Positions 3,624-13,919 of a DNA stretch of 53,706 nt are shown piece after piece. Source of the DNA: Candidatus Gemmiger faecigallinarum (lineage in GTDB: Bacteria; Bacillota; Clostridia; Oscillospirales; Ruminococcaceae); the NCBI GenBank assembly GCA_019120395.1, contig DWVD01000093.1, positions 1 through 53,706 on the forward strand. Reading direction: 5' to 3'. Both the position numbers and the translations under genes were made by a program. The notes below the pieces were generated by a model, which was not told the origin of the DNA, did no database searches, and saw only the letters and a program-made list of their open reading frames with translations. Positions within the stretch are counted from its first letter, which is position 1. Each line of letters opens with the position of its first letter.

Positions 3624-4802
3624 CTAGGCTGCGTCCGCCTGGCGGGAGACCGACAGCACGATGCCCATCTCGCCTAGCAGCATCATCAAACTGGTGCCGC
3701 CGGAAGAGAAAAACGGCAGGCTGATGCCGGTGTTGGGGATGGTGTTGGTGACCACCGCGATGTTCAGCACCGCCTGCAGGATCACCTGGACCACAAATCC
3801 CACCACCAGCAGCGCGCCGAACCGGTCTCGGGCCCGCACCGCAATGGACATGCCCCGCAAAAGCAGCAGAAGAAACAGCCCGATGACCACCGCCGCCCCC
3901 ACAAAACCCAGCTCCTCGCACAAAATCGAAAAGATAAAGTCGTTCTGCGGTTCGGGGACGTAGAGGTATTTCTGCCGGCTGTTGCCCAGCCCCAGCCCGG
4001 CGATGCCGCCCGACGCGATTGCGTACAGGCTCTGGATGGTCTGGTGGCCCTCGCCCAGCGGGTCGGCAAAGGGATCCTGCCAGCTGGCCAGGCGGTCGGC
4101 AGCGTAGGGCACCAGCTCCGGCAGCAAAATGACCGCCGCCGCAATGGCCGCCGCGGCCGCCGCCCCCGCCAGCCCGAACCACTTGAGCCCGGTGCCGCCC
4201 ACAAACATCAGCACCGCGCCGATGCCCAGAATCAGCAGCGTACCGGACAGGTGCGGTTCCAGCAGCATCAGCACTGTGACCGCGCCCAGGATGACCGCAA
4301 AGGGCAGCACCCCGGTGGAAAACGTCTGCATCCGGTCATGGTTCAGCGAGATGATGTGCGAAAACACCAGCACCACCGAAAATTTGGCGATCTCGCTGGG
4401 CTGCAGCGTGCCCAGGCCCGGCAATACGATCCACCGCTTGCAGCCGTTGTACTCCGGCATGAACAGCACCACCACCAAAAGCGCCAGCGACACGCCCATC
4501 AGCGGCCAGGCCAGCTTGTGCCAGACATGGTAATCCACCAGCGACGCCAGGTACATGGCCGCCAGCCCCAGCGCGGCAAACAGCAGCTGGGGGCGGATGT
4601 AGGTGTAGGCGTCCCCCCGGCGGTACAGCGCCACCGCGTAGCCGGCCGAGAACAGCACCACCAGCCCCAGGCAGACCAGCAGCAGCAAGATCGCCAAAAA
4701 CGGCAGGTCCAGCGCCGGCAGCGCGCGCAGCCGCTTGCGTCCGTCGGACAGCGCCCGCCGGAAGCTGCGTTCCCCCCGCGCATGGTAGACGTTCTTTTCC
4801 AT
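3624..4802 (-). CDS. ftsW: SEDS peptidoglycan glycosyltransferase, FtsW/SpoVE type
   Basis: 392 aa integral membrane protein with about ten spans. SEDS signatures are clear: GCKRWIVLPGLGTLQPSEIAK, a glycan-strand loop with WQDPFADPLGEGHQTIQS, the FtsW/SpoVE stretch NSRQKYLYVPEPQNDFIFS, and the C-terminal NTGISLPFFSSGGTS. Family members polymerise lipid II at the septum (FtsW) or in the spore cortex (SpoVE), together with a class B penicillin-binding protein that is not in this window. FtsW versus SpoVE cannot be settled by eye. Start 4802 has an AAAGGGGG site eight bases away; the ATG at 4829 lacks a good site and a TACAAT -10 lies just upstream of it. Single gene with its own terminator. Confidence 0.88.
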   Translation of the reverse strand: MEKNVYHARGERSFRRALSDGRKRLRALPALDLPFLAILLLLVCLGLVVLFSAGYAVALYRRGDAYTYIRPQLLFAALGLAAMYLASLVDYHVWHKLAWPLMGVSLALLVVVLFMPEYNGCKRWIVLPGLGTLQPSEIAKFSVVLVFSHIISLNHDRMQTFSTGVLPFAVILGAVTVLMLLEPHLSGTLLILGIGAVLMFVGGTGLKWFGLAGAAAAAAIAAAVILLPELVPYAADRLASWQDPFADPLGEGHQTIQSLYAIASGGIAGLGLGNSRQKYLYVPEPQNDFIFSILCEELGFVGAAVVIGLFLLLLLRGMSIAVRARDRFGALLVVGFVVQVILQAVLNIAVVTNTIPNTGISLPFFSSGGTSLMMLLGEMGIVLSVSRQADAA

Positions 4803-4894
4803 CCCGCAGGCCCCCTTTCTTTGTGCCATCCCGTCTATTGTACGCGGCAGGGGCGCGGTTTAATCCTTTCCCGGCACAAAAAAGCCGCGCAGCC

Positions 4895-5110
4895 AAAGCG
4901 GAGAAAGCGCAGGGAAGCTATGGTTTTGCCGCGCAGGCGGCAAAACTGCGAAGCGCCGAAAAATCGCAAAAAAACAGGCCGGCGGCAAGGCGCCGGAACG
5001 CCGGCGTCCTTTGCGGACGCCAGGCGGCGGCAGCGCAGCCAACGGCCTGTTCTTAAATTGGATTTTGCGGCAAAGGTTCCTTGTGCGCGCTCCGCCAGGG
5101 TACTGCGCGG
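4895..5110. repeat. Dispersed structured repeat, copy 2
   Basis: Second copy of the element at 304-515, same orientation, lying between the 5' end of ftsW/spoVE and the 3' end of the SpoIID-domain gene (both minus strand). Differences from copy 1 mostly fall in predicted hairpin loops, bulges or A-runs, or in stretches outside the stems; one change turns a G-U wobble into G-C (AACAGGCT to AACAGGCC, facing GGCCTGTT). The closing stem and both inner hairpins are fully retained. No plausible protein is encoded. Confidence 0.85.
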
Positions 5111-5144
5111 CATTTTCGCCCGAGCTGCGCCGCATGAGGCAGGC

Positions 5145-8100
5145 TCAGTAGGTGGTCAATGTGGTGCCGGGGAAATAATGCAGCAGAATATCCTGATAGC
5201 TCCAGCCGTTGGTGGCGTAGCCGATGGTTCCCCATTGGCTCAGCCCGCAGCCGTGGCCATACCCGTACACGTCAAAAATAAAGCAGTCGTTGGAAGAATC
5301 GTAGGTCACGGTAAAGCACTGGCTGCGCAGGCTGCGGCCGTCCACGCTCTGGCCGGCCAGCAGCGTCTCGCGGAACCAGCTGCCGCTGCGGGTGACGTTG
5401 GGCCCTCCGTCGGGGCCGATCTGGATCTGGCTGACCCAGCCATACTGGTTGGCCGATACGATCTTGAACCAGCTGTTGGGATCCACGCCGGACAGGTCGA
5501 TCCCCAGGACCTCCTGGATGCGCTGCTGCACCGTCTGGCGGGCAAAGCGCGCGGTGCCGGAGCTGGCGCCGTTGGTGTTCCAGTTGGTGGCAAAACTCTG
5601 GTCATAGGGGCTTTCCACCGCCTGCAGCCAGGGCAGGTCGCCGCCCCACACGTCGGCCGAGGAGGCCGTGCCTGTGGAGGCCGAGGCAAAATACGGCGTA
5701 AAGCAGACGTTGCCGTTGTAGGTCACCAGCACATGGGCGACCTCGCGGGCGGCAGCCAAAGCGGCTTCGCCGGGCGTCGCCCCCGCCACCGAGGGATAGC
5801 CCCCCTGGCTGATGATCCAGCAATGCGCCGCCACGCACTGCGCCTTGTATGCTTCTGCCGGCGCGTTGGAGCCAAGCTCGTTCTGGGCGATCATGGCCAG
5901 GCAGGTCACCAGGTCCAGCGTCTGCTGGCTGCCGTTCATCGTCACGTTGATGGTCTCGCCCTCCGCCGAGCTACCCCCGCCGTCAGAAGGCGCGGTAGGC
6001 TCCGGGGTGGGCTGGGGCGCGGTTTCCTCCCCGCCGTCCCCCGAAGGGGCCTGCGTGGGTTCGGGGGTGGCGTCCGGCGTCGGCGTGGCCCTGCCCGCGG
6101 CGATCTCGTCCACCGAGATCGACTGCTGCGGCGGCGCGCCCTCGGCGCCCTGGTTCAGGTCGGACTCCGACGCGCCGGCCTGCCCGGCCCGGTCGGTCAA
6201 GCCGGCCAGCAGCTTGTCCACATCGCTGGTCAGCTGCTCGGTCTCGGCCTCCAGATCCTCCAGGCTCTGGTTCAGCGCATCGGTGTCGATGCCGCTCCCG
6301 TCGCCGGTCTCGCCGTCCGCTCCCCCGTCGGCAGAGGCGGGCAGCGCCGCGCTGGCCGTGGCGTACCATTCCATTTGCCGGGCCAGAAGCTGGGTCACAT
6401 CCGGCATCTCCTGCCCGGACGCCGCATAGCGGGCCGCCGGCAGCAACGCATCGTCCTGGACCGTAATGGCCGCCGGGGCAAGCTGGGCGTCCTCGTTTTC
6501 CCCGATCAGCCGCCCGGTCACGCAAAGGCGGACGCCGTCCGTCCCGGCGTCCGACACCAGCGTCAGGAAGCTGGCGTTGTCCCCCACCGTGATGGCGGTG
6601 TCATACAGCGAGCGCGCCCGCGCGCCCAGCACAAAGTCCAGATAATCGCCGTAATCCGACAGCTCGCGCCCGGAAATATCGAACGCGCCCGCGCCGGTCT
6701 CGGCGCCGTCCTGATAGTAGACGGCCATCACCTTGTAGCGATAGGTCCCGTCCGCCAGATACAGCGTGAACCCGGCGTTTTCCCGCAGCGTTTCCAGCTC
6801 CGAAAGCCCATCCAGGCCGCTGCCGTGCATGGCAAGCGCCGTGTTTGCCGGGTAATCGCTGCCCAGGTAGCTGGCGCCCTCCACCTGCGGTCGGGCCTCC
6901 TCCGCAGATTCGGTCGTTGCGCCGGACAGATAGACCAGCTCGCCTTCCATGCCGGGGAAAGCCAGGTAGCCGGCCACGTCCTCCCGCTTGTCGGCGGCGT
7001 TGGCAAGGTAATCCTGCGCGCTCTGGTCAAACTGCGCGGTGCCGTACCCGCGGGGCGATGGCTTGGCGCCCAGGCTGGTGCTGAAATAGAAGAACAGCGC
7101 AGCCGCGCCGACCGCCACCAGCAGCAAAAAGGCCGCCAAAACCATCAGCATGGTGCGGCGCTGCCGCTGTTCGGCTTTTTCGATGCGGGCCAGGCTGCGG
7201 CTTTGGCCCTCGTCCATCGCCGCGGCGGCGTCCGTCTCCCGCCCGTCCGGTTCGGGGGTGTCGTACAGGTAGCGCACCGCGCTCTGGAAGTCCTCCAGGC
7301 TGCTCGGCTCGTTGGCGTCGTCGGCGGCCTGCGCGGCGCGCACGGCGGCCGGGTCCAGGCCGCTGGTCAGATCCGGCAGGTCGTCGTCCAAAATGGAATG
7401 GGGCGGCTGCTGCCGGTTTGCCGCGGGGGCGGTATTCAGCCGCCGCCCGCCACCGGTGCGCACGCTGCGGTATTTGGCCGCCGCCTCGGCGCCGCCGGTC
7501 TCAAAATCGAACGCGGTATCCCCCCGTCCGGCTGCCGCGCGCGGCGACGCCGCATCCGGCGCGCCGGCCGTCTCAAAGGTGATCTTTCCCGCGGGGGAAG
7601 CCGGGGCCGTTCCTGCCGCCGCAGGCGCGGCGGGGTCGGCGTCCCAGCCCTGTTCGGCCGCCGCCCAGGCCGAGGCCGCCACCGACGCCGCATTGTCCGG
7701 CGTGGGGCGAGCGCTCTTCTCCTGCCGGCCGCCGGGCCGGTCCACCGCAGCCACCGCGGCGGCTGCCGCGTCGGCCGCCACCTTGGGGATCTGTGCCGTG
7801 TCAAAATCCAGCATCGGCTCAAAGGAGCTTCGCTTTTTGCGGCGGCGCAGCGAGAAGCGGGCGGTATCGCCGGGTTTGGACTGCCCCGCCTGGGACACCA
7901 GCAGAAGCGGGCGCTCGTGGCCGGGGCGGAACTGGATGGTGCCGGGGGTAAATTTCAGCCCCAGCGTGCGGCGACGCACCAGGTCCAGGATATTGTTGGC
8001 AATGGCCGCGTCGGTCAGGTCCGGCCCCAGGGCGCAGGCCGCCGCGCCGCGGTGGTCGCATACCAGCACAAAGGGCGCCTGGCCCACGGTCGCCGGCATG

Positions 8101-8630
8101 TACACGGCGGCGCAGTCCGCCTGGCCCACCGCCATGGCAAGCTGGGCGCGCCCTGCGGCCGCCTGCACCACATCGCCGGGGAACTTGTTCAAAAGCGAAG
8201 GCGGCGTGATGATCTTGCGCGCATTGACCGGGTCCGCATAGGTCTGGGTGCCAAAGTCAAAGGCGGCTTCGCTGTGTTCCAGCGGCCGCAAAAGCGCGCC
8301 CAGCATGCGGCCGGTGGTCTCGTCCACCGCCACCAGCATGCGGCGGCGCTTCAGCAGCGCGTCCAAGGTTGCCTGGGCCAGGCTGGTCTCGCCGGTACCG
8401 TAGACGGCGTCGCCAAAGCGGGCGGCCAGTTTCTGCGCCCACTTGTCGCAGTGCTCGTCGGCCATGGCCTGCGTGGGGGCGGACGCCTGCACGCAGACGG
8501 CAAACTCGCCGTCCCGCTCCAGCAGGCGCAGGCCGGTACAGCCGTCCGCCTGCGCCTGGCGCAGGATGGCGGTGACCTCGGCCGATGTCAGGCCGAACAC
8601 GCGCAGGATACGCAGCTGTGTGGACACCAT
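5145..8630 (-). CDS. Chimeric membrane protein: CinA-like half, sortase-B-like domain, SpoIID domain
   Basis: 1161 aa. Residues about 1-245 follow the middle and C-terminal halves of CinA (for example ARFGDAVYGTGETSLAQATL, then VAVDETTGRMLGALL where CinA has AESCTGG), but the catalytic motif is lost. A low-complexity Ala/Pro-rich stretch precedes a membrane span at about 492-514. Residues about 535-715 resemble class B sortase: VAGYLAFPG, His602 and Arg701 are kept, but the catalytic Cys position in LTLSTC reads LTLVSD (Asp694). An acidic and Pro/Thr-rich linker leads to a SpoIID/LytB domain (about 895-1161) with AYKAQCVAAH, Glu918 at the lytic-transglycosylase position, and GYGHGCGLSQWG. Likely a membrane-anchored, outward-facing peptidoglycan enzyme. 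The GGAGGTG site supports start 8630. It lies 123 bp downstream of cinA, same strand. Confidence 0.85.
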   Translation of the reverse strand: MVSTQLRILRVFGLTSAEVTAILRQAQADGCTGLRLLERDGEFAVCVQASAPTQAMADEHCDKWAQKLAARFGDAVYGTGETSLAQATLDALLKRRRMLVAVDETTGRMLGALLRPLEHSEAAFDFGTQTYADPVNARKIITPPSLLNKFPGDVVQAAAGRAQLAMAVGQADCAAVYMPATVGQAPFVLVCDHRGAAACALGPDLTDAAIANNILDLVRRRTLGLKFTPGTIQFRPGHERPLLLVSQAGQSKPGDTARFSLRRRKKRSSFEPMLDFDTAQIPKVAADAAAAAVAAVDRPGGRQEKSARPTPDNAASVAASAWAAAEQGWDADPAAPAAAGTAPASPAGKITFETAGAPDAASPRAAAGRGDTAFDFETGGAEAAAKYRSVRTGGGRRLNTAPAANRQQPPHSILDDDLPDLTSGLDPAAVRAAQAADDANEPSSLEDFQSAVRYLYDTPEPDGRETDAAAAMDEGQSRSLARIEKAEQRQRRTMLMVLAAFLLLVAVGAAALFFYFSTSLGAKPSPRGYGTAQFDQSAQDYLANAADKREDVAGYLAFPGMEGELVYLSGATTESAEEARPQVEGASYLGSDYPANTALAMHGSGLDGLSELETLRENAGFTLYLADGTYRYKVMAVYYQDGAETGAGAFDISGRELSDYGDYLDFVLGARARSLYDTAITVGDNASFLTLVSDAGTDGVRLCVTGRLIGENEDAQLAPAAITVQDDALLPAARYAASGQEMPDVTQLLARQMEWYATASAALPASADGGADGETGDGSGIDTDALNQSLEDLEAETEQLTSDVDKLLAGLTDRAGQAGASESDLNQGAEGAPPQQSISVDEIAAGRATPTPDATPEPTQAPSGDGGEETAPQPTPEPTAPSDGGGSSAEGETINVTMNGSQQTLDLVTCLAMIAQNELGSNAPAEAYKAQCVAAHCWIISQGGYPSVAGATPGEAALAAAREVAHVLVTYNGNVCFTPYFASASTGTASSADVWGGDLPWLQAVESPYDQSFATNWNTNGASSGTARFARQTVQQRIQEVLGIDLSGVDPNSWFKIVSANQYGWVSQIQIGPDGGPNVTRSGSWFRETLLAGQSVDGRSLRSQCFTVTYDSSNDCFIFDVYGYGHGCGLSQWGTIGYATNGWSYQDILLHYFPGTTLTTY

Positions 8631-8753
8631 GGGAACACCTCCGGGTGGTTGTGGTAGATTGGGGCCGCCCCGCCGGCGCAGGCCGGCACAGGGGACGGAC
8701 AGTCAGAAAAAGGGCAGATGCGCGCCGGCAGGGCGACGCATTTTTGCCGCGCG

Positions 8754-10064
8754 TCAGATGTCCAGCGCGGCAGGCTCGGCCAGGCAGCGGTCCGCCGGCG
8801 CGGCCAGCGCGCCCGGCAGGGGCAGGTCCAGCGCCATGCGGCGCAGCAGATCCAGCGCGTACAGCGCCGCCCGCGTACGGATAATGCCCCGGTCCTGGTA
8901 GCCGCCCAGCGTCAGGCGCATCAGATACACGCTGTTTTTGCGGGCGTCGCAGCCGCCCAGGTAGACGGTGCCCACCGGTTTGCCGGGCAGCGCGCCGCCG
9001 GGGCCGGCGATGCCGGTCAGCGACACGGCCAGCTCGGCGCCGGAGACCCGCTGCGCCCCCAGCGCCATGGCCGCCGCCACCGGGCCGGAAACGACGTTGT
9101 AAGTTTCGATCAGCGCCGGGTCCACGCCCAGCAGTTTTGCCTTGGCGGCCTCGGCGTAGGTGACAAAGCCGTAGCCGAACACCTCGCTGGCGCCGGGCAC
9201 GTTGGTGATGCGCTGGGCCACCAGGCCGCCGGTGCAGCTCTCGGCCGCGGCGGCGTGCAGCCCCCGCTCTTTCAGCGCGCGGACAACGGTGTATTCCAGC
9301 GCGGGCACGTCCACGTCGTAGGCGGCGTCCCCCAGCCGAGCGCGGAGCCTGTCCAGCATGGCGCCGCAGTCGGCTTCCGCCTGGGCGGCGGTGGCTGACC
9401 GGGCGGTGACGCGGATCTCGCTCTCGCCGGTCTTGCAGTAGATGGCGACGGTGGGGTTGGCGCTGTCGAACAGGTCGCCCACCTTCTCGGCAATGCGGCT
9501 CTCGCCCCCCAGCACGTGTAGCGTGCGGCTGTGGATGGTGCAGTTCTGCCGGCGCTCCAGCACCGGACGCACCTGCTCGGCCCACATGGCCTTCATCTCC
9601 CGGGGGACGCCGGGCATCAGGGCGGCGCAATGGCCGTTTTCATCCTCGAACCATGCGCCGGGCGCGGTGCCGTGGGCGTTGGGCAGTTTGTGCCCCCGCA
9701 CCGGCACCATGGCCTGTTTGCGGTTGTTTTCGGTGGGGGTGCGGCCGGTGCGGGCAAAAAAGTCCACGATCTTCTGCCATTCCGCCGGGTCGAACGTCAA
9801 TGCGTCGCCAAAGGCTTGGGCCACCGTTTCTTTGGTCAGGTCATCGTCGGTGGGGCCAAGCCCGCCGGAAAACACCAGCAGGTCGCTGCGGGCGCGGGCG
9901 GTGCCCACCAGCTCTTTCAGCCGGGCGGCGTTGTCCCCCACCACATGCTGGTGCAGCACGGTGATGCCCAGCTCGGCTAGTTCCCGGCTCAAAAACTGGG
10001 CGTTGGTGTTGACGATGTCGCCCAGCAAAAGCTCGGTGCCAACGCAGATGATCTCGGCGGTCAT
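8754..10064 (-). CDS. cinA: CinA: MoCF-like domain plus nicotinamide-nucleotide amidase
   Basis: 436 aa, full length for CinA. The N-terminal MoCF/COG1058 domain (ICVGTELLLGDIVNTNAQF, then SGGLGPTDDDLTKE) is an ADP-ribose pyrophosphatase in characterised members. A KH-like middle domain follows. The C-terminal PncC domain has AAAESCTGGL and SLTGIAGPGG and deamidates nicotinamide mononucleotide for NAD recycling; it is often linked to competence genes in Firmicutes. Start 10064 has an AAGGAGGGG site. It lies 55 bp downstream of thiI and upstream of the chimera whose N-terminus is a degenerate copy of CinA's second half. Confidence 0.92.
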   Translation of the reverse strand: MTAEIICVGTELLLGDIVNTNAQFLSRELAELGITVLHQHVVGDNAARLKELVGTARARSDLLVFSGGLGPTDDDLTKETVAQAFGDALTFDPAEWQKIVDFFARTGRTPTENNRKQAMVPVRGHKLPNAHGTAPGAWFEDENGHCAALMPGVPREMKAMWAEQVRPVLERRQNCTIHSRTLHVLGGESRIAEKVGDLFDSANPTVAIYCKTGESEIRVTARSATAAQAEADCGAMLDRLRARLGDAAYDVDVPALEYTVVRALKERGLHAAAAESCTGGLVAQRITNVPGASEVFGYGFVTYAEAAKAKLLGVDPALIETYNVVSGPVAAAMALGAQRVSGAELAVSLTGIAGPGGALPGKPVGTVYLGGCDARKNSVYLMRLTLGGYQDRGIIRTRAALYALDLLRRMALDLPLPGALAAPADRCLAEPAALDI

Positions 10065-10119: not shown

Positions 10120-11313
10120 TCACATTTCCGGGTCGTCCCCAATGCGGATGGGGATCTTTTCCACATTGGCGGCGGCTTCCCGCTCCAGCTCGGCCAGGCC
10201 GGGCATGGCGGCCTCGGCGGCCTCGATCTCGGCCAGGGTGGGCCGGGTCTTGGGGTGGGGCGGAGTGAAGATGGTGCAGCAGTCCTCGTACGGCTCGATG
10301 GAAGTCTCAAAGGTGCCGATCTCGCGGGATTTGGCAATGATCTCGGTCTTGTCCATACCGATGCAGGGACGCAGCACCGGCAGGTCCTGGGCGGCGTCGG
10401 TGCAGGCCAGCGCCGCCAGCGTCTGGCTGGCCACCTGGGCCAGGCTCTCGCCGGTGACCAGCGCCTGCATGTCGGTGGTGGCGGCCACCAGGTTGGCGAT
10501 GCGCAGCATGCTGCGGCGCATCAGCACGGTGAACAGCACGTCGGGGGCGTTGTCCCGGATGTACTCCTGGGGTTTGGTGTAGGGCACCACAAACAGCATG
10601 CAGTTGCCGGTGTACTCGCTGATCTCCCGTGCCAGCGCCACCACCTTGAGCTTGGCGCGCAGGCTGGTGTAGGGCGGCGAGGCAAAATGGATGTGGTGCA
10701 AAGCCAGGCCGCGCCGCGCCATGTACCAGGCGGCCACCGGGCTGTCGATGCCGCCGGACAGCAGGTTCAGCGCGCGGCCGCTGGTGCCCACCGGCAGGCC
10801 GCCGGGGCCGGGCACCTTGGGGCCGTGAATGTAGGCGCCAAAGTCCCGGATCTCCACCATGACCTCCAGCTGGGGGTTGTGCACGTCCACCCGCAGGTGG
10901 GGGTGCTTGGACAGCAAAAAGGCCCCCAGCTCCCGGCAGAGTTCCGGGCTTTTCATCGGGAAGGTCTTGTCCGACCGCTTGGCCTCCACCTTAAAGGTCT
11001 TGATGCCCCGTAGCGTCTGGCCCAGGTAGTCCTCGGCGGTCTGGCAGATGGCGGTAAAGTCCTTTTCGCAGACGGCGGCGCGGCTGAGCCGCGCGATGCC
11101 GAACACCTTGGACACCCGGCGGAACGCCTCGTCCATGTCGATATCCTCGTCCATGGGCTGGATGTACAGGGTGCTCTGGGCAGTGCGCAGCTTGAACTCG
11201 CCCAGATCCTCCAGGCGGGCGCGGACCGCCTTGGTCATTTTCGCCTCGAAGGTGCCGCGGTTCAGGCCCTTGAGGGCCATTTCGCCCTGGAATGCCATGA
11301 TGATCTCTCTCAT
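10120..11313 (-). CDS. thiI: tRNA 4-thiouridine synthetase ThiI
   Basis: 397 aa. ThiI uses ATP and persulfide sulfur to make 4-thiouridine at position 8 of tRNA. Visible in order: ferredoxin-like N-terminal domain, THUMP domain (about residues 60-165), and PP-loop ATPase with NLLSGGIDSPVAAW. The C-terminus carries ALVTGESLAQVASQT and the EDCCTIFTPPHP segment. No extra rhodanese domain is present, so sulfur must come from a cysteine desulfurase; one is encoded immediately upstream on the same strand, a pairing known from Bacillus (NifZ-ThiI). The ATG at 11313 was preferred to an in-frame TTG at 11322 because AGAAAAGG is properly spaced to the ATG. Confidence 0.93.
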   Translation of the reverse strand: MREIIMAFQGEMALKGLNRGTFEAKMTKAVRARLEDLGEFKLRTAQSTLYIQPMDEDIDMDEAFRRVSKVFGIARLSRAAVCEKDFTAICQTAEDYLGQTLRGIKTFKVEAKRSDKTFPMKSPELCRELGAFLLSKHPHLRVDVHNPQLEVMVEIRDFGAYIHGPKVPGPGGLPVGTSGRALNLLSGGIDSPVAAWYMARRGLALHHIHFASPPYTSLRAKLKVVALAREISEYTGNCMLFVVPYTKPQEYIRDNAPDVLFTVLMRRSMLRIANLVAATTDMQALVTGESLAQVASQTLAALACTDAAQDLPVLRPCIGMDKTEIIAKSREIGTFETSIEPYEDCCTIFTPPHPKTRPTLAEIEAAEAAMPGLAELEREAAANVEKIPIRIGDDPEM

Positions 11314-11398
11314 ATCGTTCAAACCTTTTCTGTTGGATTTCTATCTGTTGTTGGGACGCAGTTCAAAGTGCGGCCGCCGGCCTTTGCCTCTGACCTGC

Positions 11399-11533: not shown

Positions 11534-12691
11534 TCAGATGTGCTGCAGCTCGGTCAGGCCGGCGCGCAGGGCGTCCAGCAGGGCGTCCACGTCGGCCTCG
11601 TCGTTGTCGGCGCAGAAGCTGACCCGCAGGGCGGTGGCCACGGCTTTCTCGTCGCAGCCCATGGCCAGCAGCGTGTGGCTTGGCTCGCCCTTGTCGCAGG
11701 CGCTGCCGCCGGAGACGTAGATCTGCCGGTCGCTCAAGTAGCTGATAAAAGTCTGGCTGTTGACGCAGTTTGTGGAAAAGTTGAGCACCTCCGGCACCGC
11801 GTCCGCCGGCGAGTGGATGGTGACGCCGGGCAGCCCGGCCAGCCCCGCCCGCAGCCGTGCGTTGAGGGCGGCGGCATTGCGGGCATTGGCTTTCATCCGC
11901 TTTGCCCCCTGCTCGGCCGCCAGCCCCAGGCCGACGGCGTAGGGCAGGTTTTCGGTGCCGGGGCGGATGCCCCGCTCCTGGTGGCCGCCCAGATAGGGCG
12001 GGCGCAGGTGCTGGCGCTGGTTGTCGCAAAGGTACAGCGCACCGATGCCCTTGGGGGCGTGCACCTTGTGGCCGGAGACCGCCAGCGTATCCACGCCGGG
12101 CAGCTTTTTCATGTCCAGCGGGATGCGCAGCCAGGCCTGCACCGCGTCGATGTGCACGGCGGTGCGGCTGTTTTTGGCTTTGACCCCCGCCGCCAGCCGG
12201 GCGACGTCCTGCACCGCGCCGGTCTCGTTGTTGACAGCCATGCAGGCCGCCAGCACGGTATTTTTGTCCACCGCGTCGATCAGCTTCTGCACGTCGATGC
12301 GGCCGTCCGGCTCCGGGGGGATCTCCACCACCGCAAAGCCCCGGTCTTTCAGCGCCCGGATGGGCAGCTGGACGCTGGGATGCTCAAACCCGGTGGTGAC
12401 GATCTTGTCGCCCCACCCCTGCCGGGGAATGGCCGCGCCCAAAATCGCCAGGTTGTTGCTCTCGCTGCCGCAGGCGGTAAAATAGACCTCGTCTTTGGCG
12501 CAGCCAAGCGTCTTTGCAATTTTGCCGCGGGCGGCGGCGAGCTTGTGCTCGGCCAGGATCGCCGGCTCGTACAGGCTGGAAGGGTTGGCCCAGCAGGTAC
12601 GCATGGCGTCGTTGACGGCGTCGGCCACCGCCGGGTCCACCAGGGTGGTGGCGGCGTTGTCCAGATAATGCAGGTCAGGGTCGGTTCGCAT
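11534..12691 (-). CDS. Cysteine desulfurase (NifS/IscS family)
   Basis: 385 aa PLP-dependent class V aminotransferase fold. Starts with the signature YLDNAATTLVDPAV. The PLP lysine is in SGHKVHAPKG; GGHQERGIRPGTEN is the substrate-binding segment; the catalytic cysteine lies in SGGSACDKGEPSH, with the short loop typical of the NifS/IscS group. It would release sulfur from cysteine and pass a persulfide to ThiI, encoded directly downstream (221 bp), for tRNA thiolation; a wider Fe-S role is possible but no iscU-like scaffold is nearby. The start at 12691 has ACGAGG nine bases upstream. Confidence 0.92.
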   Translation of the reverse strand: MRTDPDLHYLDNAATTLVDPAVADAVNDAMRTCWANPSSLYEPAILAEHKLAAARGKIAKTLGCAKDEVYFTACGSESNNLAILGAAIPRQGWGDKIVTTGFEHPSVQLPIRALKDRGFAVVEIPPEPDGRIDVQKLIDAVDKNTVLAACMAVNNETGAVQDVARLAAGVKAKNSRTAVHIDAVQAWLRIPLDMKKLPGVDTLAVSGHKVHAPKGIGALYLCDNQRQHLRPPYLGGHQERGIRPGTENLPYAVGLGLAAEQGAKRMKANARNAAALNARLRAGLAGLPGVTIHSPADAVPEVLNFSTNCVNSQTFISYLSDRQIYVSGGSACDKGEPSHTLLAMGCDEKAVATALRVSFCADNDEADVDALLDALRAGLTELQHI

Positions 12692-12832
12692 GGTGGAAAG
12701 CCTCGTTTTCAAATGGTTTTCGGCGCGCGTGCCGCGGCAGGCCGCGCAGAAAGCGGGCGGCCGGCCAGGGCCGGAACGCCCCGCGCCCCGGTGCCGCCGG
12801 CAGGCAAAAATGAGCAGAGAAATACAGGTTAA

Positions 12833-12873
12833 ATTATAGCACGCCCCGGCGCCTGTGCACAAGCGCCGGGGCG
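12833..12873 (-). promoter_or_regulatory. Promoter region of the cysteine desulfurase with overlapping inverted repeat
   Basis: Minus-strand -10 TATAAT (12833-12838), preceded by TGC as an extended -10. The -35 region (TTGTGC, 18 bp away) lies in the loop of an 11-bp perfect inverted repeat, CGCCCCGGCGC and GCGCCGGGGCG (12842-12873). There is no adjacent T-run, so this looks like an operator or a structured boundary rather than a terminator. Confidence 0.5.
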
Positions 12874-12905
12874 AAAAATTCATGGAATTGTTGTGGGAAA
12901 TGCCT

Positions 12906-13919
12906 TCATTCCCCAAAATCCGCCGCCACCTTTTTCAGCATCTGGCGGATCGGCAGCTGATACGGGCAGCGGGTCTCGCAGGCGCCGCACTCGATGCAGG
13001 CGCCTGCCTTGACCGGGAGGGTGTTGTACCGCTCGTGCGCCCAGCCTTCCAGGCCGTAGCGGTTCAGGTAGCCCTGGAACAAAAAGCAGTTGGGGATCTG
13101 GATGCCCACCGTGCAGGGCGCGCAGTAATTGCAGCGGCGGCAGAACTGGGTGCCCAGGCTTTTGCGCACCTCCTCGCAGTCGGCCAGTTCCTCCTCGGTC
13201 AGGGGGGAGGTATCCTCGGCGGCGGCCACGTTCTGGCTCAGCTCCCGCAGTTCGGCCATGCCGGGGATGACAACCGTCACATCGGGGTTGGCCAGCGTAT
13301 AGCGGATGGCCAGGCGGCCGCTCTCGATGGCGCCGCCGGCCAGCGGCTTCATGGCGATGAACGCCTTGCCGGCGGCCTTGCAGCGGGCGATCAGGTCGGC
13401 GCCCTGCTGCTCGACGATGTTGTAGGGGAACATGATGGTCTCGATGTCGGGGCAGGCCAGCGCCTTCTCAAAGGTGGCGGCCAGGTGGGCGGTGACGCCG
13501 ATGTGCTCCACAATGCCCACCGCGTGGGCGCTTTTCAGCGCCTCCAGCGCGCCGCCCGGGGCGATGATGCGGTCAAAATCCTCCGGGCTGGGGTTGTGGA
13601 ACTGATACAGCTCGATGTGGTCGGTGCGCAGGCTGCGCAGACTGGCGTTCAGCTCGTCGGCCATCTCCTCGGCGGTGATGGCGCGGCATTTGGTGGCGAT
13701 GATAAATTCATCCCGCAGACCGCTCTGCTGCAAAGCCTGGCCGATCCATTCCTCGCTGACGGTGTACGCGCGGGCGGTGTCGATGTAGTTGACGCCCGCC
13801 TTGTGGGCAGCTTCCAGCAGCTCCCGCGTCCGGGGCTGGTCGATGCGCTGGACCGGGATCCCGCCAAAGCCCAGCCGCGAGACCTTCAGCCCCGTCGACC
13901 CCAATGAAACATATTGCAT
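12906..13919 (-). CDS. Aldo/keto reductase with C-terminal 4Fe-4S segment
   Basis: 337 aa. The TIM-barrel part shows FGGIPVQRI, YIDTARAYTVSEEWIGQAL (Asp and Tyr of the catalytic tetrad), IIATKC (Lys) and ELYQFHNP (His). About residues 285-320 carry two cysteine groups, FCRRCNYCAPC and ACIECGACETRCPYQLPI; the second is a CX2CX2CX3CP ferredoxin motif. This is the Fe-S aldo/keto reductase group common in anaerobic Firmicutes; substrate unknown. Start 13919 has GGAGGCG upstream. Monocistronic, with a promoter at 14009-14036. Confidence 0.88.
   Translation of the reverse strand: MQYVSLGSTGLKVSRLGFGGIPVQRIDQPRTRELLEAAHKAGVNYIDTARAYTVSEEWIGQALQQSGLRDEFIIATKCRAITAEEMADELNASLRSLRTDHIELYQFHNPSPEDFDRIIAPGGALEALKSAHAVGIVEHIGVTAHLAATFEKALACPDIETIMFPYNIVEQQGADLIARCKAAGKAFIAMKPLAGGAIESGRLAIRYTLANPDVTVVIPGMAELRELSQNVAAAEDTSPLTEEELADCEEVRKSLGTQFCRRCNYCAPCTVGIQIPNCFLFQGYLNRYGLEGWAHERYNTLPVKAGACIECGACETRCPYQLPIRQMLKKVAADFGE

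Follow-up and report, generated by a model that had tools for sequence, protein, structure and literature searches.

Introduction

The protein domains considered here are individually known. CinA consists of a COG1058/MoCF domain followed by a KH domain and a PncC domain, class B sortases form family C60B (SrtB structures 4ux7, 2oqw and 1ng5), and SpoIID/LytB lytic transglycosylases (TIGR02669; C. difficile SpoIID, 5txu; chlamydial SpoIID) have a C-terminal domain with a catalytic Glu. Class B sortases start with a membrane anchor, and the sortase and SpoIID families act outside the cell. Domains derived from all three are encoded by a single gene within a 53,706-nucleotide stretch of Candidatus Gemmiger faecigallinarum DNA (contig DWVD01000093.1, assembly GCA_019120395.1; this whole stretch is hereafter called the window). 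The encoded protein has the KH and PncC folds of CinA, the fold of the class B sortases, and the C-terminal domain and catalytic Glu of the SpoIID/LytB transglycosylases; like the latter, it is probably membrane-anchored and active outside the cell. Unlike CinA, it has no MoCF domain and no Ser/Lys/Thr site, and its CinA-derived domain is attached to a membrane protein. Unlike the described transglycosylases, its SpoIID domain is joined to CinA- and sortase-derived domains, and it scores below the cut-off of the sporulation equivalog.

This architecture and the corresponding operon were not found described. Specifically, no link or fusion of CinA, class B sortase and SpoIID appeared in the literature searched, which lay mostly outside the subscription journals; the accessible portions of the literature on SpoIID and sortases held no such fusion, and a paper that names sortase together with a pseudoenzyme concerns enolase. 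Because relatives of the fused gene hold its parts as consecutive separate genes and as partly fused forms, we regard the window protein as an operon collapsed into one polypeptide. On balance, we consider it probable that the product is a membrane-anchored glycan-strand cutter of the SpoIID type, in which a domain descended from CinA binds a partner in the cytoplasm and the former sortase serves as a stalk.

Relatives run from separate genes to complete fusions

The operon or its fused forms were seen in families f1, f15, f16 and f24 of the order (loci, genomes and families carry our own L, G and f numbers). At one end of the series, pncC, one to four class B sortase genes and a SpoIID-like gene follow one another as separate genes (L109-L114, L119, L120, L122, L123, L135), and a complete cinA, a sortase gene and a SpoIID-like gene are likewise separate in L124, L127 and L132. 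CinA and sortase are fused beside a separate SpoIID-like gene in L125, L126 and L130, and in L129 with a shorter CinA part; all parts are fused in L049-L053, L055-L063, L065-L067 and others. The order of the domains in the fusion is the order of the genes in the operon, and thiI and nifS are present in 80 and 79, respectively, of the 88 loci searched. The first-pass annotation, made from the letters of the window alone, had missed this origin, together with the sortase triad that is still intact in many fused relatives.

The series also has departures. L076 has a free cinA and fuses only the sortase and SpoIID parts; some fusions have no detectable KH/PncC part (L071, L075, L087) or no detectable sortase (L054, L088). 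In L115, pncC is found about 3.5 kb off and on the opposite strand, and L116 has an extra gene between the sortase and SpoIID-like genes, with gaps of similar size in L117, L118 and L121. No SpoIID-like gene was present inside the fetched stretch of L134 and L136-L139.

Several of these loci have features of their own. Four tandem class B sortase genes stand between pncC and the SpoIID-like gene at L109:4091-8959 and L135:3524-8112, and at L136:3298-5961 an 887-aa class B sortase with two Big_2 stretches follows nifS-thiI in cinA's place. In another family of the order, L131:3520-5811 and L133:8939-11290 each hold a SpoIID-like frame with an N-terminal MoCF-like match (E about 1e-10) and a stand-alone pncC; Pfam sees no MoCF in L133. 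The other half of CinA may have moved to the SpoIID-like protein in these two loci.

A survey of the kind proposed in the first-pass annotation found the fused gene in all 26 genus genomes searched, which rules out that it exists only in this genome. It is a single long frame in 22 of them, ruling out an assembly or frameshift artefact; the gene is fragmented or incomplete in G711, G713, G726 and G732, of which the last three have it next to contig edges by coordinates. The nearest full-length relatives are 17 loci, 15 from Gemmiger and 2 from Subdoligranulum. Across the family, 190 of 197 genomes match some part of the protein and, among the matches listed, many match the SpoIID part alone. 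By hidden Markov model (HMM), 38 of 40 loci from 40 other family genomes carry the fused gene (L068 and L085 do not), and 31 of these 38 include a MoCF-like domain, absent from the Gemmiger form. These HMM counts use L032 and above only, since some earlier loci repeat the same sequences (L003 = L046 and L004 = L033, by equal scores). Because the 40 family loci were picked for long frames or strong matches and the other order loci for neighbouring or strong hits, locus counts are not frequencies. In a class sample of 245 genomes, only the window's match, among the matches listed, spans sortase and SpoIID; at four class loci from other orders with strong matches, L140-L142 have a SpoIID-like gene beside which neither cinA nor a sortase was found, and L143 has a sortase alone. 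A different architecture was seen at L068:2936-7588, a 1550-aa frame with long repeats, judged by eye, and a C-terminal SpoIID domain.

Domains and lost active sites of the fused protein

The position 5145-8630 given in the first-pass annotation stands, and the strand is minus. The gene and its parts are:

5145..8630, minus: whole fused gene, 1161 aa, ATG start (frame call and full-length relatives)
8397..8612, minus: CinA-type KH domain, residues 7-78 (Pfam CinA_KH below cut-off; AlphaFold2 and Foldseek to 6mr3)
7959..8387, minus: PncC-like domain (nicotinamide mononucleotide (NMN) deamidase fold), residues 82-224, active site lost (Pfam, profile, Foldseek)
8307..8324, minus: DETTGR, residues 103-108, replacing ESCTGG
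7167..7898, minus: Ala-rich linker, predicted cytoplasmic, residues 245-488, low conservation
7083..7151, minus: membrane span, residues 494-516 (hydrophobicity and basic N-terminal flank, by eye)
6396..7040, minus: class B sortase-derived domain, residues about 531-745, triad not conserved
5148..5963, minus: SpoIID/LytB domain, residues 890-1161 (TIGR02669; PDB SpoIID 5i1t)
5877..5879, minus: catalytic Glu918 (alignment with Glu101 of C. difficile SpoIID)

The first-pass annotation had read the protein as a CinA-like KH and PncC half that lost its ESCTGG site, a membrane span, a sortase B fold with Asp694 at the Cys position, and a SpoIID domain with catalytic Glu918; each of these assignments is borne out by the comparisons below. 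Profile or fold matches for all three parts rule out chance resemblance.

Residues 5-235 follow the CinA KH and PncC fold. The Pfam matches of the window protein to CinA_KH (expectation value, E, 3.6e-4) and CinA (E 0.021) are both below the cut-offs; a phmmer search among the fetched frames matches residues 39-172 to the neighbouring CinA (E about 1e-9), CinA 6mr3 is hit at E 2.7e-9 by a profile built from 16 Gemmiger rows, and an AlphaFold2 model of the CinA part finds 6mr3 with Foldseek at E 2e-14. This model is the best of five by predicted local distance difference test (pLDDT 91.6), the others ranging from 86.8 to 58.0, with three of the five at about 60 or below; the input to AlphaFold2 was the window and Gemmiger rows only (16 and 17 sequences). 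No match to the MoCF (COG1058) domain was found in the window protein, whose KH domain begins at residue 7.

The active site of the PncC part has been rewritten. Residues 103-108 read DETTGR, with Glu104 replacing the Ser of ESCTGG. The available part of the report on TtCinA credits Lys301 and Thr340 with the reaction (PMC4246079), and we took the corresponding positions from an alignment to TtCinA 4ct8. The Ser/Lys/Thr trio is intact in 44 of 44 free CinA proteins and 19 of 19 stand-alone PncC proteins, and it occurs together in none of 21 Gemmiger-type domains of relatives (Ser 0, Lys 6, Thr 1). Across 16 Gemmiger rows, the former active-site loops are invariant in their new form, at D103, E104, T106 and G107 and at P179, A180, V182, G183 and Q184.

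The placement of the parts around the membrane is suggested by the single span, by its N-terminal flank, which is the more basic one as judged by eye, and by what is known of the sortase and SpoIID families. Since class B sortases begin with a membrane anchor, a fusion of this kind would keep the CinA part inside the cell and place the sortase and SpoIID parts beyond the membrane.

A profile of the sortase part hits SrtB 4ux7 at E 7.6e-6, the other entries of that list being noise from unrelated antibody chains; its AlphaFold2 model (pLDDT 87.0; five models 85.2-87.0) finds the same structure with Foldseek at E 8.4e-10. The sortase model TIGR03064 does not match the window protein at E 0.01; L050 and L075 are above its cut-off. 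Although His602 and Arg701, which the first-pass annotation took as kept, are present as letters in the window, among 16 Gemmiger relatives the His602 position is His in none and the Arg701 position is Arg in 4; the Asp694 position is Asp in 2 and Cys in none. Because the His and Arg positions are not kept in the genus, their presence in the window is most likely due to chance, and we reject a retained His and Arg. In contrast, 46 unfused class B sortase relatives keep all of His, Cys and Arg.

The window protein scores 106.4 bits against TIGR02669 (NCBIfam; cut-off 83.3) and 17.4 against Pfam PF08486, below the cut-off of 23; PDB SpoIID 5i1t is matched at E 2e-19. Glu918 aligns with Glu101 of C. 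difficile SpoIID (5txu), where the E101A substitution abolishes activity, according to the accessible part of the report (PMC6221140). Of 84 aligned domains, 83 have Glu at this position and only L131 departs. The SpoIID part is predicted to be an enzyme that cuts glycan strands. The sporulation equivalog TIGR02870 gives the window protein 93.5 bits, short of its cut-off of 234.75.

Active sites after fusion

The fused relatives provide a natural experiment on the fate of enzymes after fusion. The His/Cys/Arg triad is kept in 46 of 46 sortases without a CinA or SpoIID part and in 6 of 6 fused only to CinA; among 53 fused to SpoIID, it is lost in 34 (16 from Gemmiger) and kept in 19. Fisher's test gives p 4e-14 for triad loss against fusion, on rows that are related by descent. 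On the SpoIID tree, built without L047, L068 and L085, parsimony requires 8 changes of the triad label, or no fewer than 4 when the count is restricted to starred branches.

The MoCF motif and the PncC trio are both intact in 7 fusions (L049, L054, L069, L073, L074, L077, L086), in which the sortase is dead (6) or undetected (L054), and no second CinA was found in their genomes among the matches listed. In 20 other fusions, the CinA part has no PncC trio or no MoCF motif, and a separate cinA with an intact trio lies elsewhere in the genome. The single CinA match of G032 (best E 1.6e-21; completeness 91) is probably that of the fused gene; G033 has the fused CinA match only (completeness 97), and G026 has no CinA match (completeness 87). 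A living CinA with a dead sortase is best described as a tendency. A strict trade-off in which either the CinA or the sortase stays alive is not a rule, because many fusions have lost both, and because the PncC trio and the sortase triad occur together in L056, which has lost its MoCF motif, and in L050 and L060, whose other CinA motifs are degenerate.

Descent and selection in the Gemmiger lineage

Just upstream of the fused gene, which starts 123 bases downstream of its stop codon on the same strand, lies a free cinA, itself preceded by thiI and a nifS-type gene (Pfam):

8754..10064, minus: free complete cinA (MoCF, KH and PncC; ESCTGG intact; Pfam, alignment to TtCinA 4ct8)
10120..11322, minus: thiI, conserved upstream gene (Pfam, synteny)
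11534..12916, minus: nifS-type gene (Aminotran_5), conserved upstream (Pfam, synteny)

L049, which has a complete CinA and a dead sortase, is sister to the Gemmiger-type clade on the SpoIID tree (Shimodaira-Hasegawa-like approximate likelihood ratio test, SH-aLRT, 96), and on the CinA tree its CinA part clusters with the free cinA of the Gemmiger lineage (support 95). From the placement of L049 in both trees, the sortase was probably dead by the time of the fused ancestor, and a second CinA copy arose. The CinA tree was built without L033, L035, L037, L039, L043, L083, L128 and the stand-alone PncC genes. The CinA-derived domain of the fused protein sits on a long branch; in a topology test made without 15 further long-branched or degenerate rows, trees that hold it together with the local cinA are better by 3.5 to 4.0 log-likelihood units, with p-AU (approximately unbiased test) of 0.578 and 0.591.

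We compared the parts by the ratio of nonsynonymous to synonymous divergence (dN/dS), obtained by a simple count that gives rough values, with L035, L045 and L047 left out. Over 105 pairs of 15 Gemmiger sequences, SpoIID has the lowest median (0.22), followed by the CinA part (0.31), the sortase part (0.56) and the membrane span (0.69); the two linkers are at 0.50 and 0.71. In the free, catalytic cinA, the corresponding domains have a value of 0.29, so the dead CinA part is as constrained as the working enzyme. The dead sortase part evolves about as fast as the linkers in Gemmiger.

Proposed function and alternatives

In the collapsed-operon reading, nifS-thiI of the order are followed by cinA or pncC, one or more class B sortase genes and a SpoIID-like gene, and in many genomes the genes after thiI have joined into one while keeping their order. 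The Gemmiger lineage has lost the active site of the sortase and encodes a complete CinA just upstream; the CinA half left on the fused protein has lost its catalytic residues but has stayed under strong selection, with rewritten pocket loops. The partner bound by this domain may be a nucleotide-like molecule, a second copy of the same domain or the CinA encoded next door, and such binding may place or regulate the cutter across the membrane; the dead sortase would act as a stalk, and the SpoIID part would cut glycan strands in cell-wall remodelling. The earlier proposal that two enzyme folds are reused as binding or sensing modules, which may control one lytic enzyme, suits the CinA part, which is dead, constrained and invariant in its loops; it is only weakly supported for the sortase part, which evolves like linkers in Gemmiger, though a dead sortase part is well constrained in some other genera (L058/L065).

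Several observations weigh against this reading. Not every fused protein is limited to one enzyme, since 19 of the 53 SpoIID-fused sortases keep their triad. The contrast in dN/dS between the CinA and sortase parts is absent from the L080/L083 pair (0.13 and 0.14) and reversed in L081/L082 (0.59 and 0.35), and both dead parts are constrained in L058/L065 (0.27 and 0.10); these values come from nine other-genus pairs, several of them saturated at synonymous sites, and they speak against the sortase being only a stalk as a general rule. The trees also allow, rather than demonstrate, that the CinA copy of the fused protein came from a tandem duplication of the local cinA. Finally, adjoining genes need not share a function.

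The best-surviving alternative, which we nevertheless judge improbable, is a neutral ratchet, in which a gene fusion, harmless because the membrane anchor comes first in the sortase, left the CinA and sortase parts as slowly decaying passengers and only SpoIID matters. It would account for triad loss being confined to sortases fused to SpoIID and for its repeated changes on the SpoIID tree, for the fast-evolving Gemmiger sortase part, and for the fusions with no detectable KH/PncC part or sortase. However, a passenger CinA part would not be expected to be as constrained as a working CinA in Gemmiger, or to be present in 26 of 26 genus genomes (in pieces or partial in 4) with invariant rewritten loops.

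Less probable again is a mixed dimer, in which the pseudo-CinA pairs with the neighbouring CinA and so tethers the recycling of NMN and adenosine diphosphate (ADP)-ribose to membrane sites of wall cutting. The two are encoded side by side, as this would suggest, but adjacency is not required, since the 20 fused relatives with a degenerate or incomplete CinA part have their cinA elsewhere. A role in sporulation engulfment, as a second SpoIID acting with SpoIIP in spore formation, is very unlikely: SpoIIP and Spo0A are present in 25 and 26 of the 26 genus genomes searched, but the same genome has a separate, shorter SpoIID-like gene (C113, 351 aa) and the TIGR02870 score of the window protein is far below the cut-off. 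A role outside sporulation fits this separate gene and low score, as well as the precedent of a non-sporulating bacterium whose SpoIID, in the accessible part of its report, is septal and cuts peptidoglycan (PMC6635528).

The collapsed-operon reading can be carried further, to a dead CinA that serves as a cytoplasmic sensor of pyridine-nucleotide or related metabolites and gates a trans-membrane glycan cutter, with the cinA-sortase B-SpoIID operon as one metabolism-tied wall-remodelling system; we regard this extension as unlikely. The relatives cover the steps between separate genes and a full fusion with unusual completeness, and this suggests that one process is served by CinA, class B sortase and SpoIID-like proteins. 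The fused protein also offers a testable case, in gut bacteria, in which an inactive enzyme in the cytoplasm has been retained, possibly to regulate a protein that cuts the wall.

Other features near the fused gene

An FtsW/RodA-type gene (PF01098; window 3624-4829, minus strand) lies directly downstream of the fused gene. Of the 17 Gemmiger loci (L032-L048), 11 have such a gene; it was not found in any of the 71 other loci searched, many of which have little downstream DNA. Antisense to the fused gene, a 1537-aa frame runs along window 4044-8657 on the plus strand; it is probably a by-product of the codon usage of a G+C-rich coding sequence.

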